Source: Massilia rubra
Lineage (GTDB): Bacteria; Pseudomonadota; Gammaproteobacteria; Burkholderiales; Burkholderiaceae_D
DNA: 64,000 nt
Direction: 5' to 3'
NCBI RefSeq assembly: GCF_011682065.1
Contig: NZ_VUYU01000007.1
Coordinates: 124,001-188,000, forward strand
The position numbers and the translations under genes were made by a program. Each line of letters begins with the position of its first letter. Position 1 is the first letter of the stretch. Below, one piece after another: positions 33,681-58,602 of this stretch. Under the pieces are notes generated by a model. That model had not been told where the DNA came from. It saw nothing but the letters and a program-made list of their open reading frames with translations, and did no database searches.

Positions 33681-33707
33681 CGAATGTGCATCATAATGCC
33701 TCTATGA

Positions 33708-33816: not shown

Positions 33817-33822
33817 CGATGT

Positions 33823-33899: not shown

Positions 33900-33949
33900 A
33901 TATTGCTTTGATCGGTAAAACTGATCTCAAAACCAATCCTTGGTAATGC

Positions 33950-35662: not shown

Positions 35663-35688
35663 GCTAAACTGGTCAGGGCATAAAATAT

Positions 35689-40326: not shown

Positions 40327-40629
40327 CTAGAACGGCAATTGACCGGTATCCGCGGATGTTGCATCGAGATCGATCTCGACAAATGCCACATGCTCCAGCT
40401 GCACCAGCGCCAGCAATTCGCTGGTCTGGAACGTGGCGAAAGAGCGAAAACCGTTGTCTTCAATCGACACCAGCATGATCGGCAATGCCGGGAAATACGG
40501 CTGCAGCCGTACCAGCAGCGCCGGCCCGCGTTCGGGCAGCGTGTCGATGGAGTCGACCAGCACGATCGCCAGCACCAGGCCGCCCACCGTGATGCAGGCC
40601 GACTTCATCGGCCCGGCGCGCACGCGCAT
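40327..40629 (-). CDS. Small membrane protein coupled to the phage repressor gene
   Basis: 100 residues. One hydrophobic helix near the N-terminus (ACITVGGLVLAIVLVDSI) then a mixed domain with LPIMLVSIEDNGFRSFATFQ. The ATG overlaps the TGA of the repressor by one base (TGATG), so it should be made from the same transcript during lysogeny. That position is typical for superinfection-exclusion or immunity-accessory genes. No homologue recognised; function inferred only from position. Confidence 0.55.
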   Translation of the reverse strand: MRVRAGPMKSACITVGGLVLAIVLVDSIDTLPERGPALLVRLQPYFPALPIMLVSIEDNGFRSFATFQTSELLALVQLEHVAFVEIDLDATSADTGQLPF

Positions 40630-41342
40630 CAGATACGGTCGCTTTCCTTGCGCACCACGCGCCCCACGATAATGCAGTCGCTGCCGCGGCACACCTTGCG
40701 ATGGTACTTGCGCTTGTCGGAATTGTCGGACTCCAGCCACCAGTCGCCGGCGTCGCGCGAGAGCCTCTTTACCACGGCCTCGCCTTCGTAGTTGACCGCG
40801 AACACAGCGCCGTCGGCCGGCCGGTTATCGGCCGTGTTGATGACGATGATATCGCCGTCATACAAGGTCGGCTCCATGCTCTCGCCCTTGACCCGCGTGG
40901 CCACCAGGCGCTCGGCCACATAGTGGTTGCGTCCGACCCAGCCGGCGTCGAGCGGCAAGGTGGCCCCGGCGTCGTGCTCGGGGTCGGCCTGGAAACCGCT
41001 GATGCCGGCCGACAGGCGCAAGGTCACCATCTTGATCTTGACGAAGCGCGGATCGCCGTCTTCCGGAACCACGACGGGCTGCATGCGCGCCAGGCTGGCG
41101 CCATCTGCCCCATCTGCACCACGGCGCGCCATCGGCCCGGTGCCTTCGTGCAGCCACTCGAAGGCCACATTGCACGCGCTCGCCAGGGCGGCCAGGGTGG
41201 CGGCCTCGGGACCGCGCGCGCCGCTGCGGTTGAGGATACGGTTAATGGTCGGCTGCGGGACGCCGGAGGCGCGCGAGAGCGCGCTTTGCGACTGGAACCC
41301 GGCTTCTTCCATCGCTTGTGTGAGTCGGTCTGAGATAGTCAT
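40629..41342 (-). CDS. Phage CI-like repressor (XRE helix-turn-helix plus S24 peptidase)
   Basis: 237 residues. N-terminal helix-turn-helix at about 8-60 (SQSALSRASGVPQPTINRIL) and a C-terminal LexA/CI-type S24 self-cleavage domain: catalytic Ser in KGESMEPTLYDGD and Lys in GEAVVKRL. Such repressors keep the prophage silent and cleave themselves with RecA after DNA damage. The ATG at 41342 lies about 7 bases after a TATAAT read on the minus strand and has no Shine-Dalgarno, so the mRNA may be leaderless. It is divergent from the Cro-like gene. Confidence 0.9.
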   Translation of the reverse strand: MTISDRLTQAMEEAGFQSQSALSRASGVPQPTINRILNRSGARGPEAATLAALASACNVAFEWLHEGTGPMARRGADGADGASLARMQPVVVPEDGDPRFVKIKMVTLRLSAGISGFQADPEHDAGATLPLDAGWVGRNHYVAERLVATRVKGESMEPTLYDGDIIVINTADNRPADGAVFAVNYEGEAVVKRLSRDAGDWWLESDNSDKRKYHRKVCRGSDCIIVGRVVRKESDRI

Positions 41343-41431
41343 GGAGGCGATTATACACGTGCGGATAGAAATGACCAGAAAAATACGAGAGTGGATTGCA
41401 CATCTATTCGATTGCGTATAGAATGTGTATA
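41343..41431. promoter_or_regulatory. Divergent immunity promoters and operator region
   Basis: Rightward: TTGCAC (41396-41401), 17 bases, TAGAAT (41419-41424). Leftward, on the minus strand: a TGGTCA-like -35 (41372-41377), 16 bases, TATAAT (plus-strand 41350-41355). The inverted heptamers TATACAC (41352-41358) and GTGTATA (41425-41431) flank the region, each overlapping a start site, and are candidate operator half-sites for repressor or Cro. Promoters are predicted from sequence only. Confidence 0.65.
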
Positions 41432-41643
41432 TGGATAAAGATATCTCCACCCTGTTACGGGAAATCAAAGACGCTACCGGGTGGACGGAAATGCGCATTG
41501 CCACGGCCCTGGGAACAACCCAGCCGACCGTCAACCGTATCCTGAACGGTCAGGCGGAATGCAAAATCGCCACTTTCCACGCGATCTGCGCGCTCCACGC
41601 GCTGAAATGTCCTCATGCCCGCACAAGCGGATCGATGAACTGA
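41431..41643 (+). CDS. Cro-like helix-turn-helix protein
   Basis: 70 residues. A helix-turn-helix reads TEMRIATALGTTQPTVNRIL; recognition helix TQPTVNRIL is close to QPTINRIL in the divergent repressor, so both may bind the same operators. Its -10 ends 6 bases before this ATG and there is no Shine-Dalgarno, which predicts a leaderless transcript. It begins the rightward early operon with the ParB-like, helicase and Toprim genes. Confidence 0.8.
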   Translation: MDKDISTLLREIKDATGWTEMRIATALGTTQPTVNRILNGQAECKIATFHAICALHALKCPHARTSGSMN

Positions 41644-41655
41644 CCTGAGGCAAAC

Positions 41656-42609
41656 ATGAGCAACACCCATCACGCCAGCGGCTTGTCCGCCGGTGCGGGA
41701 CAGTCACGTCCGCACCCCACCGGCAGCGCCTCCTCGCAGCCTGCGCCGGTGTACGAACTGCACCCGCTATGCACCCTGTTTCCGCGCCTCTCGGGCAGCC
41801 AGTTCGATGCGCTCAAACGCGACATCGCCGCCCATGGCCTGCGCCAGCCGATCGTGCTGCACCAAGGCGCGATCCTCGACGGCGGCAACCGCTACCGCGC
41901 CTGTCTCGACATCGGCACCGCGCCCCGCTTCATTGAACTGGACGGCATCGGCGCGGCCGCGTATGTGCTGTCGGCCAATCTGCACCGGCGCCATCTGTCG
42001 CCCGGGCAGCAGGCCGCCATCGTCGCCAGCGCGCAGGACTGGAGCCAGGCCCAGCGCAGCGGCGGCGACCGCACGGCGGGGCAGGGTGCAAGGCTGCACC
42101 TTGACACCGTGGCCGAGCGCGCCGCGCGCGCCGGCGCCAGCATCCGCACCCAGAAGATGGCCGACAAGGTCGCGCGCGCCGCGCCCGAGCTGGCCAAAAT
42201 GGTGGGACGCGGCGAATTGAGCTTGCCCGCCGCGCATGAACGCCTCGCCGCGCCGCCATCGCCATCGGCAGCGCAGCCTGATTCGAGCGGCACAGCCGCG
42301 CATGGCGCGCGCCCCGACCTGCTGATCGAGCTCGAAGCGGCCGACAAGGAAATCCGCCGCCTCGGCGCGCTGGTGCTTGAGCTGAGCACGTCCGACCTTG
42401 CGCAGCAGGTCGCGGCCTGGTCGCTGCGCTTCGACCAGTTGTCCGGCCGCCTGGCGCAGCTGAACACTACCTGCAACGACGCCGACAGCAAGGCGCGGCG
42501 CTACGCCCGCTTGCTCGAACGCGTGCGCGCGCTGCTTGGCGTCGAGGCCAACGCCGCGATCGTGCCGGCTGTCTGCGCGCTCAAGGAGGCCGTCCATGCA
42601 CGCTATTGA
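41656..42609 (+). CDS. ParB/sulfiredoxin-fold nuclease-like protein
   Basis: 317 residues. Residues 30-150 form a ParB N-terminal domain: LHPLCTLFPRLSGSQFDALKRDIAAHGLRQP-type start, ILDGGNRYRAC (the GxxR phosphate-binding signature) and LSANLHRRHLSPGQQA. The rest is helical with KMADKVARAAPELAKMVGRGELSLPAAH, a region seen in phage ParB-like proteins with a helix-turn-helix. Acts probably on element DNA, in replication or partition. It follows the Cro-like gene by 12 bases; the helicase gene overlaps its last 14 bases. Confidence 0.82.
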   Translation: MSNTHHASGLSAGAGQSRPHPTGSASSQPAPVYELHPLCTLFPRLSGSQFDALKRDIAAHGLRQPIVLHQGAILDGGNRYRACLDIGTAPRFIELDGIGAAAYVLSANLHRRHLSPGQQAAIVASAQDWSQAQRSGGDRTAGQGARLHLDTVAERAARAGASIRTQKMADKVARAAPELAKMVGRGELSLPAAHERLAAPPSPSAAQPDSSGTAAHGARPDLLIELEAADKEIRRLGALVLELSTSDLAQQVAAWSLRFDQLSGRLAQLNTTCNDADSKARRYARLLERVRALLGVEANAAIVPAVCALKEAVHARY

Positions 42610-44050
42610 ACTGCGCGATTACCAGCGCCAGTCCGAGGACGGTTTGCGCGCGCATATTCGTGACGGTGCGCGCAACCTGATCCTGTCGATTCCCACCGGT
42701 GGCGGCAAGACCGTGATCGCCGCGCACATGATGGCCGAGTGCCGCGCCAAGGGCCGGCGCGCCATCTTTGTCGCCGACCGCATCGCCCTGATCGACCAGA
42801 CCAGCGCCACGCTCGACCGCTATGCCATCGAGCACGGCGTGCTGCAGGGGCAGCACTGGCGCTATCGCCCGTGGGAGCCGATCCAGGTGGCCAGCGTGCA
42901 AACGCTGGCGCGGCGCGGCTGGCCCCAGGCCGACCTGATCATCGTCGATGAATGCCATGCCCTGCAAAAGACCGTCACCGAACGCATCAGCGCGCGCGCC
43001 ACCGTGTGCATCGGCCTGACCGCCACGCCCATCACCAAGGGGCTGGGGCGCTTCTACGACCGCATCGTCACCGTCGCCACCACCAACACCCTGATCCGCG
43101 AACAATTCCTGGTGCCGTTCCGCGTCTTCGCCGCCAGCGAGCCCGATATGAGCGGCGTCAAGACCGTGGCCGGCGAGTGGAGCGACGATGCCGCCGCCGA
43201 GCGCGCCATGCCCATCATCGGTGACTGCGTCGAGGAGTACCTGCGTCACGGCGCCGGTAAAAAATTCATCGCCTTCGGCTGCAACGTGCGCCACTGCGAA
43301 GAGATGCAGCGCCAGTTCGCCGCCGCCGGTGTCCTGTGCGACCTGGTGACCTACCGCAGCGGCGACGAAGCGCGCGCCGCGGCGATTGCCGAATTTCGCA
43401 AGCCGGACAGCTACCTGCGCGGCCTGATCAGCGTCAGTGCGCTGAGCAAGGGATTCGACGTCAGCGATGTCGAGGTGATCATCATGGCGCGTCCGCTCAA
43501 GTCGAGCCTGGCCGAGCACATGCAGATTCTCGGGCGCGGCTTGCGCAGCCATGCGGGCAAGCGCGAATGCATCGTGCTCGATCATAGCGGCAACTGCCTG
43601 CGCTTCTGGAGCGCCATGCACGACTTCCTCGAACACGGCGCCAGCGCGCTGGACGACGCCGAACGGCGCGCGCGCGCCGGCCGTGCGCCTGCCGTGCGCT
43701 TGCCGATGACGTGTCCGGCATGCGCCCATGTGCACGATGCGCTGCCGGCCTGTCCGGTGTGCGGAAAAATGCACGACACGCGCACCCTGACCCAGCACGC
43801 CGAGGGCGCGCTGCACGAAGTGGCCGCCGCCGCGCCCTCCGGCACGGCCGATAGGGCCGACTTCCACGCCCAGCTGCTGGCGATCGCGCACGAACGCGGC
43901 TACGCGCACGGCTGGGCCGCCAACAAGTTCAGGGAGAAGTACGGCGCCTGGCCGGACGAGCCGGCGCCGGCCCCGCGCGCGCCCACGGCGGCCATGCTGG
44001 GATGGGTGCGTTCGCGCGCCATCGCCTTTGCCAAGGGGAGGCAGGCATGA
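42596..44050 (+). CDS. Superfamily 2 DEAD/DEAH-type helicase
   Basis: 484 residues. ELRDYQRQSEDGLRAHI gives a Q-like motif; Walker A SIPTGGGKTVIAAHM; motif II DECH in LIIVDECHAL; motif III TATPITKGLGRFYD; motif VI near ILGRGLRSHAGKRECIVLDH. A zinc ribbon (CPACAHVHDALPACPVCG) follows the helicase core. Such phage helicases unwind the element origin together with a primase. The ATG at 42596 has AAGGAGG upstream and lies inside the end of the previous gene; the Toprim gene starts in its stop codon. Confidence 0.88.
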   Translation: MHAIELRDYQRQSEDGLRAHIRDGARNLILSIPTGGGKTVIAAHMMAECRAKGRRAIFVADRIALIDQTSATLDRYAIEHGVLQGQHWRYRPWEPIQVASVQTLARRGWPQADLIIVDECHALQKTVTERISARATVCIGLTATPITKGLGRFYDRIVTVATTNTLIREQFLVPFRVFAASEPDMSGVKTVAGEWSDDAAAERAMPIIGDCVEEYLRHGAGKKFIAFGCNVRHCEEMQRQFAAAGVLCDLVTYRSGDEARAAAIAEFRKPDSYLRGLISVSALSKGFDVSDVEVIIMARPLKSSLAEHMQILGRGLRSHAGKRECIVLDHSGNCLRFWSAMHDFLEHGASALDDAERRARAGRAPAVRLPMTCPACAHVHDALPACPVCGKMHDTRTLTQHAEGALHEVAAAAPSGTADRADFHAQLLAIAHERGYAHGWAANKFREKYGAWPDEPAPAPRAPTAAMLGWVRSRAIAFAKGRQA

Positions 44051-45003
44051 GCGGCTTCCTTGCATTCATCGGCGCGCACGGCATCATCGCGCCGGACTAC
44101 CTCACGCCGGGCAAATGGCAGCGCTGCCGCACCGAGAACCACCCGCGCAAGAAGAACGGCAGCATCAAGCTGGCCGACGACGGCCAGGTCGGCTGGTGCC
44201 AGGACTACGCGGTCCATGCCGAGCCGCTGATGTGGCGCGCCGGCCGCGCCGGTGCGCTGGCGGCGCCGCTCGAGCGCGCCCTGATCGCGCGCCGCCAGGC
44301 CGAACGGCGCGCCGCGCTGGCCGCGGCCACCTTGAGTGCGCGCAGCCGCTACGCGCAGTGCGCGCCGCTGCGCAACGAACATCCCTACCTGGCCGGCAAA
44401 GGCTTCGGCGTGGCCGGCTGCCACGGCCTGCGGGTCGACGCGGCCGGTGCGCTGGTGGTGCCGATGCTGTGCGACGGCGCCATCCTGAGCCTGCAGCGTA
44501 TTGCGCCGGACGGCGAAAAGCGCTTTCATCCGGGCGCCACCACGCGCGGCGCCTGTTACGTCATCGAGCGTCCCGGCGCGACCCTCACGGCCTTTGCCGA
44601 AGGCTTCGCCACCGGGCTGACCATCTTTCACGCCGTGCCCGCGTGCCGCGTGGTGGTCGCATTCAACGCCGGCAACCTGCCGGTCGTCGCCAGCGCGCGC
44701 CGGCCCGCCGGGCTGGCCGTGGTGTGTGCCGACAACGACTGGGAAACCGCGGCGCGCATCGGCCGCAATCCGGGCCTGGAGTACGCGCGCGAAGCGGCGG
44801 CCCTGCTCGGCGTGGGCGTGGCCTATCCCGAGTGCGCCGGCAGCGACTGGAACGATTTCCTGTCGGCGCAGCTGGAAGCGCGCGCCGCCGCACTGCGGCC
44901 CGGCCTGCGCCATGGGCGTGGCATCTTGCAGATGCAAGCCGGCGTATTCGCCGAGATCAAACACAAGGTCATGCGCCAAGCGCGCCTGGTGCGTCCCATG
45001 TAG
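44047..45003 (+). CDS. Toprim-domain protein, phage primase-like
   Basis: 318 residues. The N-terminal part (GKWQRCRTENHPRKKNGSIK, GQVGWCQDYAVHAEPLMWR) resembles the zinc-free end of phage primases. The Toprim-like core shows FAEGFATGLTIF with the catalytic Glu, VVVAFNAGNLPVV and VVCADND with the Asp pair. ATG overlaps the helicase stop by four bases (ATGA). It probably primes or resolves DNA replication of the element along with the helicase. Complete by length, with no visible gap. Confidence 0.83.
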   Translation: MSGFLAFIGAHGIIAPDYLTPGKWQRCRTENHPRKKNGSIKLADDGQVGWCQDYAVHAEPLMWRAGRAGALAAPLERALIARRQAERRAALAAATLSARSRYAQCAPLRNEHPYLAGKGFGVAGCHGLRVDAAGALVVPMLCDGAILSLQRIAPDGEKRFHPGATTRGACYVIERPGATLTAFAEGFATGLTIFHAVPACRVVVAFNAGNLPVVASARRPAGLAVVCADNDWETAARIGRNPGLEYAREAAALLGVGVAYPECAGSDWNDFLSAQLEARAAALRPGLRHGRGILQMQAGVFAEIKHKVMRQARLVRPM

Positions 45004-45431
45004 GACGCCGGGTGGAGCGGACGACACCCTGAAAAACGTGCACGGGCCTGTATCGGCCCACACCGCGCAAAGACTGGCCGCCTGCCATACACCAGGCAAG
45101 ACAAAAACAAGGCGCGAGGGGGCCTTGCCGAGGACCGCGAGCACGGTCCGGAGCGAACAGCGGTGAGTGTTGAAAAAACTGGCCCGCTTGCAGGTCGCAT
45201 TCGACAAGAGTGTGCCCGACAAGCGGACCGAGGGGAGGTGAGGGCTGCACCTTGGCGGGATTGACCACCCGTGAAGCGGCTACGTGCGATAGCAGTTTTT
45301 GTCTGTTTTGCTCAGGGGGCGGGAAACCACCTCTTTTACACATGCAATCAAGAGGGTTCAACCAACCCCTCTAATGACCACTTATGGGGAATCGACATAT
45401 GAACACCAACTGCATCACCGAGGGAGCAAAC
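45004..45431. other. 428-base intergenic region with several inverted repeats
   Basis: No plausible gene on either strand. Visible structures are GGACCG (45132-45137) with CGGTCC (45144-45149), CCGCTTG (45184-45190) with CAAGCGG (45220-45226), and an AGAGGGTT (45351-45358) with AACCCCTCT (45364-45372). The region separates the early operon from the putative late regulator and could hold an origin, a small RNA or leader structures controlling the next gene; nothing decides between them. Confidence 0.4.
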
Positions 45432-45998
45432 ATGATGGACACACTGACCATGGCATGGCGCGGCAACGACGCGGGCAGCGCACGCAATGCAGGCAATGCA
45501 GGCAAGCTGCGCGCCGAAGCGGCCGTACCGGCGCGCGCACGCGTGCTGACCCGGGCGCCGGCACCGGTAGCGACCGCGTCGCCGCCGGCGCCGACGCTGC
45601 GCGCGTGCGGCGCACACGATGCGCCAGGCCGGCTGGCGCACGAGCGGCTGGCCGACGATCCGGTCAACCTGTGCCTCGAACTGTGGAAGCGCTGGATGGC
45701 CGGCGACGCCGACCGCGACCTGGGCACGCGCACCATGCGCGGCCTGCGTGGCGACGGCGACGGCCACGGCGTCGACCTGTACGAAGCGCAGCAGGCCAGC
45801 GACATCAAAATAGCCGAAGCCACCGACGCCATGATCGGCAGCCTCGAGCGCATCCACGTGTGGGCCATCTACCGCGCCTGCAGCCTGGCCACGGTGTGGG
45901 CGTTTCCGAACGCGTCGCTGGTGGACGTGGCCGCCGAAGCGCGTGCGCAATTGCGCGTGAAACTTCGCAAAAACATTTGCACGGGCATTTTGTTTTGA
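45432..45998 (+). CDS. Putative phage late-gene regulator (antitermination Q-like by position)
   Basis: 188 residues from the ATG at 45432, which has a strong GAGGGAG upstream. The N-terminal 60 residues are Ala/Pro/Arg-rich; the C-terminal part is compact: LCLELWKRWMAGDADRDLG, GSLERIHVWAIYRACSLATVW and AAEARAQLRVKLRKNICTGI. Helical-basic character and position between early genes and the tail operon fit a late regulator of Q/antiterminator type; I cannot place it in a named family from sequence alone. A strong promoter starts inside its 3' end. Starts at 45384 and 45399 are less well supported. Confidence 0.6.
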   Translation: MMDTLTMAWRGNDAGSARNAGNAGKLRAEAAVPARARVLTRAPAPVATASPPAPTLRACGAHDAPGRLAHERLADDPVNLCLELWKRWMAGDADRDLGTRTMRGLRGDGDGHGVDLYEAQQASDIKIAEATDAMIGSLERIHVWAIYRACSLATVWAFPNASLVDVAAEARAQLRVKLRKNICTGILF

Positions 45999-46004
45999 TA
46001 TAAT
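45977..46004 (+). promoter_or_regulatory. Strong promoter, candidate late promoter
   Basis: TTGCAC (45977-45982), 16 bases, TATAAT (45999-46004). It overlaps the end of the putative late regulator. Transcription would start at about 46011 and meet two terminators before the first tail gene, the arrangement of the lambda pR'-tR' late switch. Confidence 0.7.
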
Positions 46005-46036
46005 AGAGGCTCAGGTCGGGTTCGCTCGTCCAAAGA

Positions 46037-46066
46037 AAAGCCCGCTACTAACCTAGCGGGCTTTTT
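46037..46066 (+). terminator. First terminator after the late promoter
   Basis: AAAGCCCGCTA pairs with TAGCGGGCTTT around a short loop, then a T-run. About 55 bases after the predicted transcript start, so unaided polymerase should stop here. Confidence 0.85.
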
Positions 46067-46166
46067 GCATTGGGGCGTGCAAACAGCACCGGCCTGGACA
46101 ACCCGGTCAATCGACACCAAGGTGCAATCCCGCACCATCACAGCAGGATCAGAATCATCCAACCAC

Positions 46167-46197
46167 AACCGCAAAGCATTCGCTTGCGGTTTTTTTT
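46167..46197 (+). terminator. Second terminator before the tail operon
   Basis: AACCGCAA (46167-46174) pairs with TTGCGGTT (46184-46191) and eight T follow (46190-46197). It lies 18 bases before the tail tube ATG, reinforcing the first terminator. Confidence 0.85.
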
Positions 46198-46214
46198 CGT
46201 CTAAAGGAATTAAC

Positions 46215-47426
46215 ATGGGCACTGCAAGCGGCATTTACAAACAAGTCAGCTACAAAGAAGAACTCACCTACGGCGTGCAGCCGGCCGCGGCCGCATCGCA
46301 AGCCGTGCGCCGCGTCACCTCGTCGCTGGACATGACCAAGGACACCTACCAGTCCAACGAGATCCGCACCGACTTCCAGATGAGCGACTTCCGTCATGGC
46401 CAGCGCAAGGTCGGCGGCGCGATCAGCGGCGAGCTGTCGGCCAAGACCTATGCGGACTTCATGGCTGCGGCCCTGAAGAAGCCTTTCACGGCCACCCCCG
46501 CCATCATCGGCGCCACCATCACCATTTCAGGCGTTCCCGGCGCCTACAGCATCACCCGCGCGGCCGGCTCGTTCCTGCTTGAGGGCATCAAGATCGGCGA
46601 CGTCATTCGCCTCACGGTCGGCGCCTTCAACGCTGCCAACCTGAACAAGAACATCCTGGTCACCAACGTCAGCGCGCTGGTACTGACCTGCCTGGTGCTC
46701 AACGGCACCGCCCTGGCGTCGGAAGGCCCGATCGCGTCGGCCAATGTGACGGTGTGGGGCAAGAAATCCCTGATCCCGCAAACAGGCCACAGCGACAAGT
46801 CGTATTCGATCGAGCACTGGTATCCGGAAGTGCCGACCAGCGAAGTGTTCACCGGCTGCAAGGTGTCGAAAATCGGCTTCTCGCTGCCGCCAACCGGCAT
46901 GGCCACCTGCAACGTGGAATTCCAGGGCCAGAACGCGGTCACCAATGTCGGCCAGTACTTCACCAACCCGAGCCCGGTCACGGCCACCAGCACCATGGCG
47001 TCGGTCAACGGCGTGTTGCGCGTGGGTGGCATGACGGTCGCCAACGTGACCGGCCTGAGCGTCGACATCGCCGCCGCCCAGAGCGGCGAGCCGACGGTCG
47101 GCTCGAACACGGTCACGTTCCAGGCCGCGGGGCGCGTGATCGTCACCGGTCAGATCACGGCCACGTTCGACTCGACGGCGCTGCGCGACGCTTTCTACAA
47201 CGAAAGCGAAATCAGCCTGTACGCGGTATTCACGTCGGATAACACCGGCGCGGCCGAGTTCATCGCTTTCAGCATCCCGCGCATCAAGATCGGCGGCGCG
47301 TCCAAGGACGACGGCGAAAAAGCCATCATCCAGACCTTCCCGTTCCAGGCGCTGCTCAACAACGCCGGCGGTGTGAACCTGGCGACCGACCTGACCACCA
47401 TCGCCATCCAGGACTCGGCAGCGTAA
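46215..47426 (+). CDS. Phage tail tube (major tail) protein
   Basis: 403 residues. The start GTASGIYKQVSYKEELTYGV and the KDTYQSNEIRTDFQMSDFRHGQRKVGGAISGEL segment are typical of siphophage tail tube proteins; the protein would polymerise in stacked rings around the tape measure. The C-terminal third (GMTVANVTGLSVDIAAAQSGE) is probably an exposed beta domain. AAGGAATTAAC precedes the ATG. First gene of the tail operon; no capsid, portal or terminase gene precedes it. Confidence 0.88.
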   Translation: MGTASGIYKQVSYKEELTYGVQPAAAASQAVRRVTSSLDMTKDTYQSNEIRTDFQMSDFRHGQRKVGGAISGELSAKTYADFMAAALKKPFTATPAIIGATITISGVPGAYSITRAAGSFLLEGIKIGDVIRLTVGAFNAANLNKNILVTNVSALVLTCLVLNGTALASEGPIASANVTVWGKKSLIPQTGHSDKSYSIEHWYPEVPTSEVFTGCKVSKIGFSLPPTGMATCNVEFQGQNAVTNVGQYFTNPSPVTATSTMASVNGVLRVGGMTVANVTGLSVDIAAAQSGEPTVGSNTVTFQAAGRVIVTGQITATFDSTALRDAFYNESEISLYAVFTSDNTGAAEFIAFSIPRIKIGGASKDDGEKAIIQTFPFQALLNNAGGVNLATDLTTIAIQDSAA

Positions 47427-47589
47427 GCGGCCCCGGTTCTTCACGCAACAACGCGGCGCCGGGATTGCCCGGCGCCGCATCACCAGCACCGGCCGGACCG
47501 CTGTCGCCTTTCGCGGGCGCGGCGTTCCGGCACGGGCACATTGCAGTTCTCTTTGTCATTCCCTCATTTACTCGCGAAAGAAAAACCAC

Positions 47590-48365: not shown

Positions 48366-48388
48366 CCACAACATAGATTGGACCGCAC

Positions 48389-51300: not shown

Positions 51301-54043
51301 TACGACCAAGTCGAGCTTCTTCGGCGCCAAGAAAAAAACCACCAACAACGTCAAGGTAGAAGGCTTGAACGACGAACTGTCGGATCAGTTCGGCAAGGTC
51401 TTCACGAATATCGAAGGCGTATTGAACCACGCAGCCATCGGCCTCGGCGTGGGCGCTGACCACGTCAAGAACACGCTGGACGCCATGACGATCGAGGTCA
51501 GCAGCATCTCGCTGAAAGGCTTGACCGGCACGGCGCTGACCGAAGCGCTCAATGCGGTCCTGTCGAAGACCATGGACGACATGGCGCAGAAGGTGTTTCC
51601 CGACATGACGGGTTTCCGCCAGGTGGGCGAAGGCTACGCCGAAACGGTGATCCGCCTGGCGTCGAACTACAGCGCGCTCGACGCCAACCTGAAGTCGATC
51701 GGCATGACCTTCGGCGCGGTGGGCGTGCCAAGTCTGCGGGCGCGCGAAGACCTGCTCCTGCTCGCCGGCGGGCTGGACAAGCTGACCGAGCAGACCAAGG
51801 GCTTCGCCGAGAATTTCCTGACCGAAGCCGAACGCCTGGCGCCGGTGCAGGAATATGTGACGGCCGAGCTGAAGCGCCTCGGCTTCGAAGGCGTCCAGAC
51901 GCGCGACCAGTTCAAGGCTGCCGTGCAGAGCTTCTCCGCCAGCGGCGCGCTGGCCACCGCGACCGGTGCCGAAACGTACACCGGCCTGATGGCGCTGCAA
52001 GCGGCGTTTGCGGCGGTGGTGCCGGCAATGGAAGCGGTCGCGGTCACATCCAAGTCGGCCGCCGATATTTTGGCGGAAGGCAAGACGCTGAAGGGGCAGA
52101 TCGCCGAGCTGAACATGACCGACCCGGACAAGCTCACGAAGGAGAAAAATGGATATGACAAGAGCAATTGGGCCGACTTCGACGAACTGCAGGCGGCCAA
52201 GGCCAACAAGCCGCTCAGGGAGCAGATTGCGGCATTGAAGTGGGCCGCCATGACGACCGAGAAGCAGCGTGAAGAGGAAATCAAACTCCTCGACAAGACC
52301 ACCCTGGCGCTGTACCTGGAAAAGGAACAGCTGGTCGCCACTGCCAAGGCGGCTGCCGACGCCAAGGTCGCCAAGGAAAAGGCCGACGCCTTGCTGGCCA
52401 AGAACCGCACCATCGACATCCAGATCATGGAATTGACGGGCAACAAGATCGGTGCGCTCAAGGCCACCCGGGAAACCGAGCTGGTGGGACTTGACGCATC
52501 CACCGTCGCCCTGGTCAAGCATCGCAACGCCTTGCAGGACCAGGCTCTGGCGGCAACGAATGCCGTCACCGGCGCGAATACCGCCTTTAACAACGTGAAA
52601 ACGGCGGTCGAGCAGGATAAGGCCGATCTGGAAACGGCGTACCAGACCAACGTCACGGCGATCCAGAAACGCGCCGACGACGCCAAGATAGCGATCGACG
52701 GCATCACCCAGCGCGCCGACGCGGTGCGCGCCGTGTTCGAGAAACTCAACACGGCGCTGGCCTCGACCGTGATCGAATCGAAAGCGTTCGACGGGGCCCA
52801 GCGCAGGTCGGCCCAGGAGTTGCTGGCGCGCGCAGCGGCCACCACGCGTGGCGGCGGCACGGCCGATATCAAGGGCCTGGACGACGCGCTGGCAACCATC
52901 GCCAAGCCATCGCAGCAACTGTTCCGGACTTTCGAGGAATGGGCGCGCGACCAGGCACGCACCGGCAATACCATTGCCGCCTTGCAAGCGAACGCGAAGG
53001 CCGAGATCGATGTGGCGGAGCTGACCGTGGCGGCCATCAACCGCTCCGTCAGCGCCATCGAGGGCGGTACCGCAGCGGAACTGCGCCTGCTCAAGGAGCA
53101 GCACGAAGCTGCGATGGCCAAGCAGCAGCTGATCATCGACAGCGCCAAGTTGCAACTCGACGCCGCCCTGGGCCTGAACACCGGGATCCTGTCCGTCACC
53201 GAGGCGCTCAAGCAATTCGGCACGGCGCTGACCGTGGTCAAGACCACCCAAAGCCCGCGCACCGTCGAGGGTCTGTACGAACAGATCCTCGGCCGCAAGG
53301 GCGAGCAGGGTGGGCTGGACTTCTGGAAGAAGGCTTTCGGCGAATCGATCGACGACAACGAAGTGGCCGATTTCACCAACGCGGCCAAGCCCGAACTCGA
53401 CGCCAAGCAGAAAGGCACCTGGCAGCAATTCCTGAGCGATCACGGCATTCCGTCCAGCGCCATCGGGGGCGGCGCGCCGCCGCTGACCTCGGTCGGCGCC
53501 GCGCCGGTCACATCGGTCGGGGCCGCGCCAACGCTGCTGACGGTCGACCAGCTGTACGAAAACATACTGCATCGCCGCGGCGAGACAGCCGGGCTGACGT
53601 TCTGGAAGAACGCCTTCGGCGCTTCGGTCGATGCGGTCGAGGAGCTGGAGTTCAGGAAAGCGGCCTTGCCGGAACTGCAGGCGCGCGAGAACGGCACGCT
53701 GGCGAAGTTCCTGCGCGATCACGGTGTGCCGGGCTATGCCGACGGCGGCCAGTTCGAGGGCGGCGTGCGCCTGGTGGGCGAGAACGGTCCGGAACTCGAA
53801 GCGACCGGTCCGGCGCGCATTTACAACGCCGGGCAAACGCGCTCCTTGCTGGTCAACGCCAGCAGCGGCGACCTGGCCGGCGAAATTCGCGAACTGCGCA
53901 TGGTGGTGCAGTCGCAGGCCGAAGCACTGATCGAGATCTCGTCCAACACGGGCAAGACGGCCGGCAGCAGCGATCAGTTGGCCAAGCAGTTCAACAACGT
54001 CAGCTCCGGCGGCAATAACCTTCGAACGAAAGCAATCGCATGA
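48389..54043 (+). CDS. Phage tail tape measure protein
   Basis: 1884 residues, long for the family; by the usual rule of about 0.15 nm per residue the tail would be near 280 nm. It is largely coiled coil, with hydrophobic patches at about 300-340 (LFAVALMVGEVFSQVGKTIG) and 790-815. The C-terminus carries two repeats of a DUF4214-like unit at about 1625-1675 (VEGLYEQILGRKGEQGGLDF) and 1718-1768 (VDQLYENILHRRGETAGLTF), and ends with the characteristic GYADGGQFEGGVRLVGENGP block. The tape measure sets tail length and is ejected first. Starts 23 bases after the chaperone extension. Confidence 0.93.
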   Translation: MIAGDMETRLRADIAQLQRFMQDVDVLVRTSVDDMQKKIVAALGNISTTVGDAVNNLNGVVATAASALTTLTTNAASGVAAAGGQAASAMSKAMAAANSALVGYAKNMVMDFPAWIKGGIDAADAVGALAKKTGIATKDVAGLQLAFTQGGASGTVFEKSMAKLAIGIAEGNSGLGALKIKTETVGVGFAKSKDVLYSVAEAFKGMKDGAQKSALAIKIFGEGGDALIPMLNDGAKGLKEMEENARDLGLTISDETAESAGKFNSQLDLIKLGATGMATRIAADLLPTLTNLSDVFLETMKSSELLGFAAHVLGGFLKSLFAVALMVGEVFSQVGKTIGGMMAEIAVGIGGYGEAIGKLMNRDWSGALASAKQTYAQITAMNADIRQDKIDSMSATFGRMEKVFSPDAPEKPKEDPKKIGLKDELLREQKEREAAKKKAEENRASANKDTDNYIKSLEKERSEIGLSAAAVKQSTAEREAAKAPQESQRQRILELAAAIKKETAANEEASKAEKKRQEDAAASLKVYTDGATKMKEEVAALERQKEVHGKSGKEVEELETGKLKKKLADGATPEETAAIQETLKLTEQKTKLRVEIEGMDALKKAGEELDKFLDPGKAKGYAEVLKDAFGSTGESIGKLMDVMGEYGEREEKVAEARKSANAKYANDATKLAAVTREINIKETKDRIGSYGDMAGAAKGFFKEGSTGYKSLEIAEKGFRAIEKAMAIQSMLTKSGLLQAFTGLFVSSKATETAATVASVAPDVAASVTKGTAAAAAGVAGQAQGDPYTAWARMAAMVAAMAALGFAVAGGGKGGGGGKTAAEMQKTQGTGGVFGDENAKSDSIGRSLELLKGSSDSLIPLNRGMLASLRAIEASLGGLTNILVRTPGVVNGTNMGITTGQLDIGKPTDAISGVMTSVTKALLPGFGGKVAGFINNLWGKTKQTIVDAGIQFGGNVRSLQAGEGFSQYASVDTTKSSFFGAKKKTTNNVKVEGLNDELSDQFGKVFTNIEGVLNHAAIGLGVGADHVKNTLDAMTIEVSSISLKGLTGTALTEALNAVLSKTMDDMAQKVFPDMTGFRQVGEGYAETVIRLASNYSALDANLKSIGMTFGAVGVPSLRAREDLLLLAGGLDKLTEQTKGFAENFLTEAERLAPVQEYVTAELKRLGFEGVQTRDQFKAAVQSFSASGALATATGAETYTGLMALQAAFAAVVPAMEAVAVTSKSAADILAEGKTLKGQIAELNMTDPDKLTKEKNGYDKSNWADFDELQAAKANKPLREQIAALKWAAMTTEKQREEEIKLLDKTTLALYLEKEQLVATAKAAADAKVAKEKADALLAKNRTIDIQIMELTGNKIGALKATRETELVGLDASTVALVKHRNALQDQALAATNAVTGANTAFNNVKTAVEQDKADLETAYQTNVTAIQKRADDAKIAIDGITQRADAVRAVFEKLNTALASTVIESKAFDGAQRRSAQELLARAAATTRGGGTADIKGLDDALATIAKPSQQLFRTFEEWARDQARTGNTIAALQANAKAEIDVAELTVAAINRSVSAIEGGTAAELRLLKEQHEAAMAKQQLIIDSAKLQLDAALGLNTGILSVTEALKQFGTALTVVKTTQSPRTVEGLYEQILGRKGEQGGLDFWKKAFGESIDDNEVADFTNAAKPELDAKQKGTWQQFLSDHGIPSSAIGGGAPPLTSVGAAPVTSVGAAPTLLTVDQLYENILHRRGETAGLTFWKNAFGASVDAVEELEFRKAALPELQARENGTLAKFLRDHGVPGYADGGQFEGGVRLVGENGPELEATGPARIYNAGQTRSLLVNASSGDLAGEIRELRMVVQSQAEALIEISSNTGKTAGSSDQLAKQFNNVSSGGNNLRTKAIA

Positions 54044-54966
54044 GCCAACCCTGCAGTGTCCTGGTGCCCGTCAAGGTCACCGGCGCCATGATCGTGAGCA
54101 CCTCGGTGCTCGAGAACGATTATGGCGCCTATCTCCCGAACAAGGCCTACGCGCTGGGCGAGCGGTGCATCAGCACCGTCACCCACCGGATTTACGAGAG
54201 CGTCTCGGCGTCGCCCAACAGCGGCCACGATCCGACCCTGCTGATCAACCAGTTCGGCGCGGTGCCGTGGTGGGTCGACCAGGGCCCGACCAATCTGTGG
54301 GCGATGTTCGACGGCTACGTGTCGACCCAGTGCACGGTTGCCTCGCCCTTGAGCGTGACCTTGCGGGTGGGCGCCTTCAACGCCATCGCCATGTTCGGGC
54401 TCGATGCCGACCGGGTCGACATCACGGTGCTCGATTCTCCTGGCGGCAAGGCCGTCTACACCTATTCGGACGACCTGGAAGGATCGGACCCGCCCGATTA
54501 TTACGAGTGGTGCTTCGACCGTTTCAAGCCGCAGACCGATTTTGTCGGCACCGGCCTGGAAGCCTACAACGATGCCCAGGTGACGATCACCTTGAGCAAG
54601 GTGACCGGTCCGGTGAAGTGCGGCCTGATCGCCCTGGGCGACATGCGCCCGCTCGGGCTGACCGAGTACGGCGCCAAGGTCACGCCGCAGACCTTCAGCT
54701 ATGTCGATGTCGACAAATTCGGCCGCACCACCATCGAACTGGGCGCCAATACCACCGACATGAGCCTGGTGGCCAAGCTCGGCATCAGCGACGCGGCGGC
54801 GGTCTACGCCACGCTCAAGGAACTGCAGGCGGTTCCCTGTGTGTGGATCGCCACCGACCTGGTCGATTACTCACCCCTGCGGGTGTTCGGACTGGGCACG
54901 CCGACGCTCTCGTTCGACGGCCCCGACCTCTGTACTGTTAACCTCGAAGTGAAAGGATTTATCTAA
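54040..54966 (+). CDS. Phage distal tail protein with possible carbohydrate-binding fold
   Basis: 308 residues; the ATG overlaps the tape-measure stop by four bases. Early sequence NDYGAYLPNKAYALGERCIS, IYESVSASPNSGHDP and VPWWVDQGPTNLWAMFDGYV suggests a small carbohydrate-binding-module-like beta domain (Y-x-x-G, Y-x-a, W pattern). The rest is beta-rich with FDRFKPQTDFVGTGLEAYND. Position after the tape measure is that of baseplate or distal-tail proteins. Sugar binding is inferred from the pattern alone. Followed by a one-base overlap (TAATG) with the fibre gene. Confidence 0.65.
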   Translation: MSQPCSVLVPVKVTGAMIVSTSVLENDYGAYLPNKAYALGERCISTVTHRIYESVSASPNSGHDPTLLINQFGAVPWWVDQGPTNLWAMFDGYVSTQCTVASPLSVTLRVGAFNAIAMFGLDADRVDITVLDSPGGKAVYTYSDDLEGSDPPDYYEWCFDRFKPQTDFVGTGLEAYNDAQVTITLSKVTGPVKCGLIALGDMRPLGLTEYGAKVTPQTFSYVDVDKFGRTTIELGANTTDMSLVAKLGISDAAAVYATLKELQAVPCVWIATDLVDYSPLRVFGLGTPTLSFDGPDLCTVNLEVKGFI

Positions 54967-56171
54967 TGGCAATCGAAATTCCACCTCCAATGACCCCGGG
55001 CCCGGTCCCGTTCATCCAGCGCGGCGACCGCGCGACCTTTTCCAGCCGCCTGGACGCCTTCGTGCGCTGGATCATCGCCGGCGTGCCGCAGTTCGTCGCG
55101 GTGGCCGCCAACGTCGAGCATAACGCCGCCGAGGCCCTGACCAGCGCCGCGGCGGCCGATAAATCGGCATTGGCGTCGAAAGAGTCGGCCAGGGTCTCGG
55201 CCGAATCGGCGGGGTTGGCGACGGCGGCGGCCGAAACGGCCAACGGCACCCAGCTCACCAGTACCAGCGTGTCGCCGCTGTCGATCGGCAATGGCAATCG
55301 GATCTTCGAGACCCAGGCGGCCAAGCAGTTCCGTGTCAACGTGCCGATGGTCGCGGTGTCGGCCAGCGATCCGAATGCGCGCATGTTCGGCACCGTGGTC
55401 AGCTATGCCGGGACCACCCTGGTGCTGAACATTACCTCGTTCAGCGGGGTCGGCACGGTATCGAACTGGAATATTTCGGTGGCCGGCGCGGCCGGTCCGG
55501 CCGGTAGCAGCGTGTTGGCTGGCAATGCGACCGACGCCATCAACGAAAAGCGCGGCGCCGACATGGTGTCCTCGGCCAAGCCCGACATCTGGGCGGCGGG
55601 CGGCAACACGGTGGTGCTGACCACCACCGACGCCATTACCGGCTTTCCGCCGGCGCCGCAGGCCGGGGCCACGCGCCGTTTCATCGCATCGGGCAACACG
55701 CCGATCCAGGGCGACGCCAATCTGGTGATCAAGGGCGGCTCGAACGTGCTGGCGGCGGGCGACGAAGTGCAGGTGCTGGCGCTGACCACCACTACCTTCC
55801 GCGCCACCATCACCCGGGCCGACGGCAGCGCGGTGGCGGCGCGCGTGGTGCGCTACGACGCCGGCACGGTCAACACCCTGGACTTCCGCAACGGCCAGGT
55901 GCAGCGCTGGGCGCCGGTGGCCGGTGCCAACGTGCTCAACATCATCAACTGGCCGCAGGCCGGGCAGCTGGGCGAACTGCTGATCGAAGGCTACGCGCTG
56001 TCGGGACGCTGGAATCCGGCCAATATCAAGTGGATCAAGTCGGATGGATCGCATGCCACCACCCTGGGCGCGGTGCCGGTGACGATGCTGGCAAGCACCA
56101 CCGTCGCCGACTGGATCTTGCTGTGGACGGTCGATGGCGGGGTCACTATCTTCGGAAAGGTGATGCGCTGA
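54966..56171 (+). CDS. Tail fibre protein
   Basis: 401 residues. N-terminal PPPMTPGPVPFIQRGDRATFSS and an Ala-rich helical section (EHNAAEALTSAAAADKSALA with SKESARVSAESAGLATAAAE) look like the shaft of a fibre with an anchor domain; a short Gly-rich linker (AGAAGPAGSS) leads to a beta-rich C-terminal domain with TRRFIASGNTPIQGDANL. Fibres define which cells are bound. The ATG follows the preceding stop as TAATG and the next gene begins as TGATG, so the three distal genes are coupled. Confidence 0.75.
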   Translation: MAIEIPPPMTPGPVPFIQRGDRATFSSRLDAFVRWIIAGVPQFVAVAANVEHNAAEALTSAAAADKSALASKESARVSAESAGLATAAAETANGTQLTSTSVSPLSIGNGNRIFETQAAKQFRVNVPMVAVSASDPNARMFGTVVSYAGTTLVLNITSFSGVGTVSNWNISVAGAAGPAGSSVLAGNATDAINEKRGADMVSSAKPDIWAAGGNTVVLTTTDAITGFPPAPQAGATRRFIASGNTPIQGDANLVIKGGSNVLAAGDEVQVLALTTTTFRATITRADGSAVAARVVRYDAGTVNTLDFRNGQVQRWAPVAGANVLNIINWPQAGQLGELLIEGYALSGRWNPANIKWIKSDGSHATTLGAVPVTMLASTTVADWILLWTVDGGVTIFGKVMR

Positions 56172-56833
56172 TGAGCATGCTACTTTTCCGCAGGGGCATG
56201 AGCAGTTCGCGCCAGCTGGTGAACCTGATGTTCTACTCGAACACCACGTGGACCTGCCCGGCTACCACCACCCGCGTGTCGCTCAGCGGTCAGGGGTCGG
56301 GGGGGGCGCCCCAGTCGTACGCCAACGGCGCGCTGAACTGCACCACGGTGACTTACATTAATGACGGGCAGTTTCCGGAAGGCCTTCAGCTTGGCAACTA
56401 CGGCTGGGCGGGTATCCGGGGAGTGACGGAAATGGGCGTTGCGGCGCGCCTGAACAACAACGGCGGCGCGGCGGGTTTTTTCCGGACCGAGTTTATTCAG
56501 TATTCTCACCCGAGTTTTGGCGAGAAGTACCAACGCACCGACACCTTGGTGCCTTTAGCTAATTTCATCATGGGTTCGGCCGGCATCTTGTATGAAGGCT
56601 CGTTTCCGACGTCGGGGCCGATCCAGAACAGTGCCAGCGCCTCGGTCGGCTTCACCTATGTGGTTGCTGCCACCAACGGCTGGCCGACCAGCGCTTTCGG
56701 GTACACATTTCCTGGCGGCGTGGGAGGCCCGGCCAGCGCCAGCGCGTACCCCGATATTGTGGTCGTTCCCGGCTCTCCCTATCCGCTCACGATTCCACCT
56801 GGCGGATGGGTCAGTCTTAGTTATTATCAGTAA
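56171..56833 (+). CDS. Phage protein, probable fibre tip or accessory
   Basis: 220 residues; TGATG overlap with the fibre gene. Beta-rich and Gly/Ser-rich (SLSGQGSGGAPQSYANGALN, MGVAARLNNNGGAAGF, GYTFPGGVGGPASASAYPDI), ending in PPGGWVSLSYYQ. The sequence resembles phage receptor-binding or fibre-tip domains that end in a Gly-rich knob. A terminator follows directly. Confidence 0.6.
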   Translation: MSMLLFRRGMSSSRQLVNLMFYSNTTWTCPATTTRVSLSGQGSGGAPQSYANGALNCTTVTYINDGQFPEGLQLGNYGWAGIRGVTEMGVAARLNNNGGAAGFFRTEFIQYSHPSFGEKYQRTDTLVPLANFIMGSAGILYEGSFPTSGPIQNSASASVGFTYVVAATNGWPTSAFGYTFPGGVGGPASASAYPDIVVVPGSPYPLTIPPGGWVSLSYYQ

Positions 56834-56840
56834 CCCACCC

Positions 56841-56865
56841 AACCCGCTTCGGCGGGTTCTTTTTA
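56841..56865 (+). terminator. Rho-independent terminator between tail and lysis genes
   Basis: AACCCGC (56841-56847), TTCG loop, GCGGGTT (56852-56858), then CTTTTTAT. A classic tetraloop terminator; the lysis cassette begins 12 bases later, so it may be partial or read through. Confidence 0.9.
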
Positions 56866-56877
56866 TGGGAGGCATCC

Positions 56878-57210
56878 ATGCAAATCGATCCGACTGGCGA
56901 CAGCGTCGTGGGCATCAAATACAGCGTGCTGATTTTTTCCTTCATCGGCGCCGCAGTCTCGCTCAGCTATGCAAAAGAAATGACGCGCCCCCAGGCGCTG
57001 ACCGCCATCACCGTCGGCACGGTCGTGTCGGTGATGGCAACGCCGCTGATACTGCATTACCTCGGCCTGCCGCAAGAACTCGACCGCGCAATCGCGTTCT
57101 TTTCCGGCCTGGCGGCGATGCGCGCGGTGCCCGTCCTGTTTTCCCTGATCGACCGCCTGCGCGACATCAAGCTGCCATGGCTGTCGGAACACAATGACCC
57201 GAAGGAATAA
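56878..57210 (+). CDS. Holin-like membrane protein
   Basis: 110 residues with three hydrophobic stretches (VLIFSFIGAAVSLSYA, ALTAITVGTVVSVMATPLIL and FFSGLAAMRAVPVLFSLI). First gene of the lysis cassette, in the place of a holin. GGGAGGC precedes the ATG. Family not recognised; function from context and membrane topology. Confidence 0.65.
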   Translation: MQIDPTGDSVVGIKYSVLIFSFIGAAVSLSYAKEMTRPQALTAITVGTVVSVMATPLILHYLGLPQELDRAIAFFSGLAAMRAVPVLFSLIDRLRDIKLPWLSEHNDPKE

Positions 57211-57214
57211 GCGC

Positions 57215-57463
57215 ATGCCGATCGTTTCACTCATCCAGGCGCTGGCCGGCCTGTACGTCGCCTATGTCAGTACCCTGGCCCTCAATAAAATGGATAAGCG
57301 CACCCCGCCTGGCGTGCGCTACGCCCACATCGCACTGGTGGCCGGCAGCGCCGCCGGGGTGGCCTCGTGCGTGGTTGCGCGCGACATTTTCGAATGCCTG
57401 TTCGCGGTCGGCATTGCGCTGTACGTCGCCGGCAACCGCCGCGGAGAACCGCATGACGCTTGA
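57215..57463 (+). CDS. Second small membrane protein of the lysis cassette
   Basis: 82 residues from the ATG at 57215, which has GAAGGAAT upstream in the end of the previous gene. Two to three hydrophobic segments (IVSLIQALAGLYVAYVSTLA, IALVAGSAAGVASCVV, CLFAVGIALYVAG). It may be a second holin or an antiholin. A start at 57194 would add 7 residues. Confidence 0.6.
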   Translation: MPIVSLIQALAGLYVAYVSTLALNKMDKRTPPGVRYAHIALVAGSAAGVASCVVARDIFECLFAVGIALYVAGNRRGEPHDA

Positions 57464-57968
57464 AGAACTGCGCAGCATCATGCCGTTCGCGCGCGCCAAA
57501 GCCGGCATGTTCCTCCCCGGCCTGAACGCTGCGATGGCCGAATTCGACATCGACACGCCGGTGCGCCAGGCGGCTTTCCTGGCGCAGGTGGGCCATGAGT
57601 CCGGCCAGCTGCTGTACGTGCGCGAGCTGGCCAACGGCGCCGCCTACGAGGGCCGGCGCGATCTTGGCAACGTGGTGGAGGGCGACGGCGTTCGCTTTCG
57701 TGGACGCGGATTGATCCAGCTTACCGGGCGCAGCAACTACAGCGCGTGTGGCAAGGCGCTCGGCATGGACCTGATCGCCCATCCGGAACTGCTCGAGCAA
57801 CCGGCCAACGCGTGCCGTTCGGCCGGCTGGTTCTGGCATGCGAACGGACTCAATGCCCTCGCCGACGCACGCGAGTTCGTCAAACTCACGCGCCGCATCA
57901 ATGGCGGCGCCAATGGCCTGGTCGAACGCCTTGCGCTGACAGCGCGCGCGCTCAAGGTGCTGGCATGA
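57453..57968 (+). CDS. GH19 (chitinase-fold) endolysin
   Basis: 171 residues. GH19 features: QAAFLAQVGHESGQLLYVRE with the first catalytic Glu, GRGLIQLTGRSNYSACGKAL and NACRSAGWFWHANGLN, ending ALTARALKVLA. Phage GH19 lysins cut the glycan backbone of peptidoglycan. No signal peptide; release depends on the holin. Overlaps the gene before and the Rz-like gene after (ATGA). Confidence 0.92.
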   Translation: MTLEELRSIMPFARAKAGMFLPGLNAAMAEFDIDTPVRQAAFLAQVGHESGQLLYVRELANGAAYEGRRDLGNVVEGDGVRFRGRGLIQLTGRSNYSACGKALGMDLIAHPELLEQPANACRSAGWFWHANGLNALADAREFVKLTRRINGGANGLVERLALTARALKVLA

Positions 57969-58351
57969 GCGCCTTTGCCAGCCTGGCCGGCGGCAGCGTC
58001 TGGAAGCTCGCCAGCGCCGTCCTGCTGGCTGCTCTGCTGGTGACCCTGTCGGCAGGGACCACTGCCTGGTGGCTGGCCGCCAGTGCGCGCGACCAGGCCC
58101 AGGCCGAGCTGCGCGTGCAGCACACGCTGGTTGCGCAACTGCGCGGCGCGCTCGACGCGCAGAACGCCGCCGTCGCCGCCGCCGGCCTGGCCACCGCCCT
58201 TGCCGAACAGCGCGGGGAGTTGGCGCGCCAGCAGGCGGCGGCCAACGCACGCCGCTTCGACCTTGCGCTGGCCAGGGTCGCGGGCGTGAAGGCCGCCACC
58301 TGTACAGAGGCCATGCCGGCCGTGAACCTGATCCTGGAGTCGATCCGATGA
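57965..58351 (+). CDS. Rz-like i-spanin
   Basis: 128 residues with an N-terminal transmembrane helix (LASAVLLAALLVTLSAGTTA) and a long helical periplasmic part with ARDQAQAELRVQHTLVAQLR: the i-spanin layout. It starts within the endolysin stop (ATGA) and the o-spanin gene begins in its own stop, as in Rz/Rz1 pairs. Confidence 0.82.
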   Translation: MSAFASLAGGSVWKLASAVLLAALLVTLSAGTTAWWLAASARDQAQAELRVQHTLVAQLRGALDAQNAAVAAAGLATALAEQRGELARQQAAANARRFDLALARVAGVKAATCTEAMPAVNLILESIR

Positions 58352-58602
58352 AAGCGATCACGCTGCTGATGGCGGGCGCACTGCTGGCCGCCTGCGCCAG
58401 CGCGCCGCCGGCGCTGCGCGAAGTGCGCGTGCCGGTGTACACGCCGTGCATCAAGGCCGCACCCGAGCGCCCGGTCTTTGCCGCGCGCACCCTGGCGCCG
58501 GACGCCAGCGATGGCGAGAAAATCCTGGCGATTGCGCGCGACCTGCCCATGCACCTGCGCTACGAGGCCCAGCTCGAAGCGCTGCTGACCGGCTGCCTGT
58601 AG
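58348..58602 (+). CDS. Rz1-like o-spanin lipoprotein
   Basis: 84 residues; lipoprotein signal ending in GALLAACASAP. Short and Pro/Cys-containing (VPVYTPCIKAAPERPVFAAR), typical of o-spanins that reach from the outer membrane to the Rz coil and fuse membranes at lysis. It overlaps Rz by four bases (ATGA). Last gene of the phage element; host trmB starts 53 bases later. Confidence 0.82.
   Translation: MKAITLLMAGALLAACASAPPALREVRVPVYTPCIKAAPERPVFAARTLAPDASDGEKILAIARDLPMHLRYEAQLEALLTGCL

Follow-up and report, generated by a model that had tools for sequence, protein, structure and literature searches.

A candidate F-type tailocin locus, derived from a headed phage family, upstream of trmB in Massilia rubra

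Is a phage tail that has lost its head a weapon or a leftover? A locus in Massilia rubra (genome of 7.57 Mb in 118 contigs; genus shared with Massilia aquatica) raises this question. It lies in a stretch of 64,000 nucleotides, here called the window (contig NZ_VUYU01000007.1 of assembly GCF_011682065.1, positions 124,001 to 188,000), and comprises 18 genes that run from an S24-type repressor to the end of an Rz1-like gene directly before trmB (window positions 40632 to 58602). Judged from its genes, this element is a candidate F-type (non-contractile) tailocin that descends from a temperate siphophage of the HK97 type and is still, like rhizoviticin, at an early stage with replication genes retained, a reading to which we give a probability of roughly 60%. 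It probably yields tail-shaped weapons against related bacteria. A preliminary description of the sequence had posed a tailocin and a deletion derivative of a prophage as alternatives. The tailocin is best supported, by the presence of the element in M. aquatica and by purifying selection, but the choice is not a true either/or: the locus is a deletion derivative of a headed phage family that has apparently been kept.

Gene families were assigned by Pfam and PHROG profile matches, plus tblastn; all genes lie on the forward strand except the repressor gene. The tail operon encodes a tail tube protein (46215 to 47426; Phage_tube_2, E 1.7e-38), preceded by a hairpin leader (46159 to 46214) that is similar in relatives, and tail assembly chaperone-type proteins 1 (47590 to 48042; phrog_313) and 2 (48111 to 48365; Phage_TAC_18). 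These are followed by a tape measure protein of 1884 amino acids (48389 to 54043; PHROG tape measure), p54, a probable tail-tip protein by position (54040 to 54966; phrog_6278), a fibre-like protein (54966 to 56171; weak PHROG tail-fibre match, E 0.03, with partial relatives in phage loci), and p56 (56171 to 56833), a variable protein whose divergence from the M. aquatica copy makes it a candidate receptor-binding tip. Family searches with the element proteins gave no match to a sheath, indicating a siphovirus-type, non-contractile tail. The lysis genes encode a holin (56878 to 57210; phrog_2359), the small protein p57 (57194 to 57463; weak DUF matches only), a GH19 endolysin (57453 to 57968; Glyco_hydro_19, phrog_181), and candidate Rz-like i-spanin (57965 to 58351; weak PHROG match, E 0.09) and Rz1-like o-spanin (58348 to 58602; PHROG matches) proteins, both with relatives in the M. 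frigida loci L030 and L031.

Family searches and tblastn found no integrase, terminase, portal, capsid, connector, or tail terminator gene in the element, so that the set of genes expected of a complete temperate phage (integrase, terminase, portal, capsid) is absent. Queries for head, terminase, and connector genes, run against the 10 kb before the tube gene, matched nothing at E<=1e-4 in either the window or M. aquatica. Across the whole element, tblastn with head and terminase queries (from L002, L028, L021, L013, and three annotated phages) returned scraps only, the best of which (E 0.002) aligned 58 residues of a terminase query within the tape measure gene; we accordingly reject a remnant of head or terminase genes in the element. 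The window likewise holds no integrase relative or remnant. The preliminary description had listed a repressor/Cro switch, replication-type genes, a tail operon, and a holin-endolysin-spanin cassette, with no gene for capsid, portal, terminase, head-tail joining, or integrase, and this inventory stands, the spanin matches being weak. Its right end of 58602 is also correct, but its left end of 40327 stems from a mechanical open reading frame (ORF), the true end being near 40632, at the repressor. The "full tail" that it described holds for the tube, chaperone-type proteins, tape measure, p54, and fibre-like protein, but overlooked the missing tail terminator.

The likely route to headlessness can be read from relatives that have heads. 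Tube relatives were collected from viral contigs (27 loci), annotated phages, and 392 family genomes, 44 of which match at E<=1e-40; identity reaches at least 65% in 5 of the 44, counting the window's own genome and M. aquatica. We surveyed head and connector genes in 32 sequences, 26 with at least 1 kb upstream of the tube. Since L005 and G357 have identical matches and are counted once, this leaves 25; some viral contigs among them are close kin, so the events are not independent. Head or connector genes lie upstream of the tube in 19 of the 25, and terminase, portal, or capsid genes in 15. The remaining six are the window, M. aquatica, G357 (tail terminator only), and L018, L019, and L020, whose tube is 57% identical and for which no head genes were found upstream. 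Heads of the relatives are HK97-type, with TerL, portal, ClpP-type protease, PF05065 capsid, gp6-type connector, head completion protein, and gp10. These headed siphophages resemble the element in their primase (63-69% in L118, L122, and L123), a p45 relative (L122 and L123), and tube (64-79% in L010, L028, G279, and G353); they differ in having terminase, portal, connectors, and tail terminator, in most cases a recognised capsid, and in L122 and L123 an integrase. M. frigida carries two prophages with p54 at 75-76% identity, also with capsid genes, at other sites.

Viral contig L123 suggests what was lost. It carries repressor- and Cro-type ORFs (by position), ParB, helicase, primase, and a non-coding block, followed by a tyrosine integrase (PF00589), a p45 relative, TerL, portal, protease, and capsid; the p45 relative precedes terminase in L122 as well. 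The window has a Toprim primase-like gene (44047 to 45003; 60-69% in the same viral contigs as the helicase), the non-coding block (45003 to 45398), and p45 (45399 to 45998) in the L123 order, and the integrase has therefore gone from between the last two, approximately at 45398 to 45399. Homology to phage contigs ends on the left at 46071, with the terminator after p45, and resumes on the right at 46159 to 46169, in the tube hairpin leader, so the block from terminase through tail terminator is missing in the interval 46072 to 46158. Two deletions, of the integrase and of terminase through tail terminator, explain the layout relative to headed relatives, although the L123 order holds for some phages only: a p45 relative is found in 5 and an integrase in 5 of 24 compared sequences besides M. 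aquatica, several of which are pieces of one contig. The p45 3' end contains a late promoter-like site (TTGCAC, 16 bases, TATAAT) and then a terminator-like hairpin (45977 to 46070), a layout that is similar in L122, L123, and L134 and not clear in L128. If it works as a late promoter, it would now feed the tail operon directly.

Is the headless state an accident of one strain? In M. aquatica (G003) the element recurs, again headless and again at this site, and its junctions match; the headless gene order, which the preliminary description proposed to compare with neighbouring genomes, is thus shared by two species. As the junctions are common to both copies, changes since their split arose in the headless state. 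None of the genes is broken in either copy. Ratios of non-synonymous to synonymous substitution rates (dN/dS) between the copies are 0 for chaperone 2 (no amino acid change), 0.07 for p54, 0.09 for chaperone 1, 0.17 for the tube, 0.20 for the fibre, 0.51 for p56, and 0.57 for the tape measure; 0.06, 0.07, and 0.22 for holin, endolysin, and Rz; and 0.13, 0.15, 0.21, 0.27, 0.35, and 0.35 for repressor, primase, helicase, ParB, p45, and Cro, respectively. Ten tail and lysis genes, pooled without tape measure and p56, give a dN/dS of ~0.16 (150.2 synonymous changes over 1479.6 sites; 75.8 non-synonymous changes over 4304 sites). The synonymous rate would predict ~437 non-synonymous changes, compared with the ~76 observed. 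Constraint on the tail genes is about equal to that on the lysis genes. An element shared with M. aquatica, with unbroken and constrained tail and lysis genes, is therefore not a one-strain accident.

Two parts of the tail have diversified. p56 is 67% identical to its M. aquatica copy, compared with 95-99% for its neighbours, and its synonymous divergence (dS) of 0.53 indicates a replaced allele. The middle of the tape measure gene (51019 to 52397) has been swapped relative to M. aquatica, with both flanks ~92% identical. We count both for the tailocin, because a review, in the part available, describes tailocin structural genes as conserved and receptor-binding genes as variable (PMC12090994).

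Several observations weigh against a tailocin. The strongest reason for doubt is the missing tail terminator, which has no match in the window or in the M. aquatica element and which in headed relatives lies directly upstream of the tube gene. PF11367, the tail terminator family, is absent from the window genome; M. aquatica has one, in another prophage. A tail terminator is needed for finished siphovirus tails, and tails without it may be uneven in length or inactive. Replication genes are present, and helicase, primase, and ParB pooled have a dN/dS of ~0.23, so that constraint extends beyond the tail genes, while p57 (0.71) and Rz1 (0.91) show little, on 6 and 10 changes. The headless element occurs in only 2 of 17 genus genomes. 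Pooled element dS is ~0.11, the value also found for the neighbouring host gene h39, whereas trmB and four more host genes have 0.16-0.25, and the copies may stem from later exchange between lineages rather than long inheritance. The same review, as far as its accessible text goes, describes tailocins as being without replication genes (PMC12090994). Much of this would also suit a decaying defective prophage, with the head deleted in a common source and the apparent constraint reflecting short time, recombination with headed phages, or repressor or lysis function only: the lost tail terminator, the constrained replication genes with low element dS, the rarity of the element, and the site in five sister species, where nothing but repressor, Cro, and holin is present, all point that way. 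Decay does not readily account for two copies free of broken genes, for tail genes as constrained as lysis genes, with their deficit of non-synonymous changes, or for changes accumulated in the headless state on common junctions. We regard decay as unlikely, if a serious contender.

The tail terminator has had a different fate in a second headless element, which has a tube of this kind and lies in G357, a genome of another genus of the family (L066/L067, contig C12; the same as L005), in the order repressor (45% identical), two small genes, PF11367-type tail terminator (just below the curated cut-off), tube, and two chaperone-type genes, followed by tape measure, tip, fibre, and lysis genes by ORF reading. 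The G357 genome has no capsid match, and no replication genes were recognised in the element. In that genus, tube matches occur in 3 of 62 genomes, namely G357, G279 (headed), and G157 (weak and broken). This tail family thus occurs headless in another genus too, there with the tail terminator kept. We count the existence of this second element in favour of the tailocin reading, and the retention of its terminator among the points against.

Could the tail terminator be supplied in trans? Elsewhere in the M. rubra genome, the 22-kb contig C59 (L146, L147), cut at the contig end, carries head genes (terminase, portal, capsid, and connectors) and a tail terminator relative (43% to tt21 by BLAST) of a related phage. 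One arrangement that would use these is a tail-making satellite able to replicate on its own, for which a headed prophage in the same cell, such as C59, would provide heads and tail terminator. The retained replication genes would fit, as would M. aquatica, whose genome has capsid genes at two other places, one of them next to a PF11367 terminator. Hallmarks of phage satellites are an integrase and packaging- or capsid-diverting genes. The element has no integrase or terminase, and no packaging- or capsid-diverting gene was recognised in it, p45 and p57 remaining of unassigned family. Moreover, the ORF after the C59 terminator is small and read as a different tube type, and a search of M. rubra's own genome found no second relative of the window tube. 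We consider a satellite the least likely of the explanations weighed here, and very improbable. A further version of the tailocin reading is a working F-type tailocin without its own terminator, completed by the tape measure alone or by a terminator borrowed from a resident headed prophage, with the early replication genes and structured RNA kept as a control module. We offer this version tentatively and think it rather doubtful.

The trmB site across the genus gives another view. trmB is present in 17 of 17 genomes, and the site could be read in 16, excluding G014, where trmB is at a contig end. Two of the 16 have the headless element, five have repressor, Cro, and holin only, and nine have none. 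Upstream DNA was compared for 14 genomes beside the window and M. aquatica (the stretches of G005 and G011 being shorter), and 9 of these 14 had no element match at the site at E<=1e-6. The preliminary description had named a full phage intact at the locus in sister strains as evidence against its view; none was found among the 16 genomes, and related headed prophages lie elsewhere, as in M. frigida. In G002, G004, G006, G008, and G016, a repressor (85-89%), Cro, a short ParB-start-like stretch, and a holin lie ~0.7 kb before trmB (L100:18425-18847, forward; L101:884-1297, reverse; L102:859-1281, reverse; L103:18453-18866, forward; L104:864-1274, reverse). The holin is LydA-type, with PF16083 demonstrated for G008, and its dN/dS of 0.14-0.32 over ten pairs indicates purifying selection. 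These five sister loci are possibly stand-alone, repressor-controlled lysis loci. The element may have replaced such a locus, or the five species may have lost the remainder; in the repressor tree the window and M. aquatica sit on a long branch, and key nodes are weak in the trmB (0.77) and h29 (0.57) trees. The sister loci, with their conserved holin, could represent in minimal form a lysis or release locus, in which selection would maintain bursting of the cell under repressor control, to release DNA or vesicles, with the tail carried along as a passenger. Such a role leaves the constraint on tube, chaperones, and p54 unexplained, and we think it quite improbable for the element.

Further differences were seen around this site. 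Related tail genes lie upstream of trmB, near the tRNA-Gly site, in L101 at ~7.5-14.5 kb (G006) and L103 at ~0.4-7.4 kb (G016). Both stretches have tape measure and fibre; G006 adds p54 and spanins, and G016 adds p56. Within the window, no tRNA-Gly end is duplicated as an attachment site. A segment of ~5.6 kb from tRNA-Arg to tRNA-Gly (32773 to 38371), including an ORF read as a DNA methyltransferase (36810 to 38090), is missing from M. aquatica.

Among known systems, the tailocin reading has its closest model in rhizoviticin of Allorhizobium vitis, a proven F-type tailocin that, according to the accessible part of its description, keeps replication genes and an integrase remnant (PMC10811719). 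Both have siphovirus-type tail and lysis genes, no head genes, headed prophage relatives, early replication-type genes, and a lost or broken integrase. Rhizoviticin comes from an alphaproteobacterium, where two prophages have combined into a chimera next to a tRNA-Cys gene, and its killing is proven (PMC10811719, in the part seen). For the element, killing is a prediction; it matches L028/L118 and L122/L010 in both early and late parts, shows no integrase remnant, and lies upstream of trmB. The same text, within that part, states that replication genes are not found in other tailocin loci (PMC10811719). F-type pyocins of Pseudomonas aeruginosa share a non-contractile tail cluster, regulatory and lysis genes, and a fixed chromosomal site, but are regulated by PrtN/PrtR and lie between trpE and trpGCD, whereas the element has a Cro-type switch, an S24 repressor, and early genes (PMC9810705, in part). 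The element has several marks of an F-type tailocin (no head or packaging genes, sheathless tail genes, its own regulator, and lysis genes). Because of its replication genes, an exception common to rhizoviticin, we file it as no more than a candidate. In Gram-positive hosts, the monocins of Listeria are also F-type tail particles.

How such a tailocin would work can be proposed from its gene order. The S24/LexA-type repressor (40632 to 41345, reverse strand; helix-turn-helix and Peptidase_S24 in Pfam and PHROG) has AG, GESM, and VVKR motifs, which we take to be those of self-cleaving repressors, and DNA damage would trigger its self-cleavage. The early operon would then be expressed: a Cro-like helix-turn-helix protein (41431 to 41643; family matches), a ParB-like protein (41656 to 42609; PHROG ParB-like, E 5.9e-8; relatives in viral contigs L123, L127, L130, and L131), a DEAD/ResIII DNA helicase (42596 to 44050; family matches; 48-66% in 15 viral contigs), and the primase (family matches). 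p45, a putative late regulator that is Q-like by position only (112 related proteins at E<=0.001, counting the window's own and that of M. aquatica), would activate the late promoter at its own 3' end, which would read directly into the tube gene; tails would assemble and be released by holin, endolysin, and spanins, and the tip proteins p54, fibre, and p56 would attach to close relatives and kill them. Late transcription may depend on the retained ParB, helicase, and primase, a role that has been published for genes of rhizoviticin with a link to replication.

For the tip proteins, the p54 model (mean predicted local distance difference test score [pLDDT] 75.8) has a predicted CBM32/discoidin-like fold at residues ~6-204; no relatives were found in the PDB by sequence at E<=1. 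A Dit-like identity for p54 is unsupported, as the fold search, in which the C-terminal part was barely covered, gave only this CBM32/discoidin-like fold. The p56 model (mean pLDDT 61.5) is confident at its two ends only.

The non-coding block before p45 (~390 nucleotides) is common to phage contigs of the family and is a structured RNA candidate. Its identity to the M. aquatica copy is 98% and to 14 viral contigs 72-76%; in L118 the match covers 69 bases only. We aligned 16 sequences, 15 of them distinct; the 80 pairs of the predicted structure form in 97.4% of cells, compared with 93.0% after shuffling and 38-45% in slid controls. Twenty pairs changed on both sides, compared with 7.2 by shuffling, a count reached in 0 of 500 shuffles; further pair types are unexceptional (44 versus 41.0; reached in 43 of 500). 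All these comparisons are biased in favour of the structure because it was predicted from the same alignment. Rfam 15 has no match at E<=0.1 over 38000 to 60000. A model of the RNA core was found in 6 of 392 family genomes under stricter filters and in 4 of 26 further sources, window included, with no match in L002, L013, L021, G279, or the three annotated phages. Given the covariation, we propose the block as a candidate new phage RNA family.

Our literature search returned no earlier tailocin report for Massilia; in the main texts, supplements aside, PMC9028926 on M. antarctica has no mention of "tailocin", and PMC10213415 on M. frigida has none of "bacteriocin" or "tail". Few lineages are known to have F-type tailocins. 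In this case, relatives with heads, a headless species pair, and sister repressor-Cro-holin loci can be aligned, so the steps from prophage to tail weapon may be readable gene by gene. Two questions become concrete with this locus: can tails be completed when the tail terminator is gone, and do the retained replication genes act in transcription, the role reported for those of rhizoviticin?

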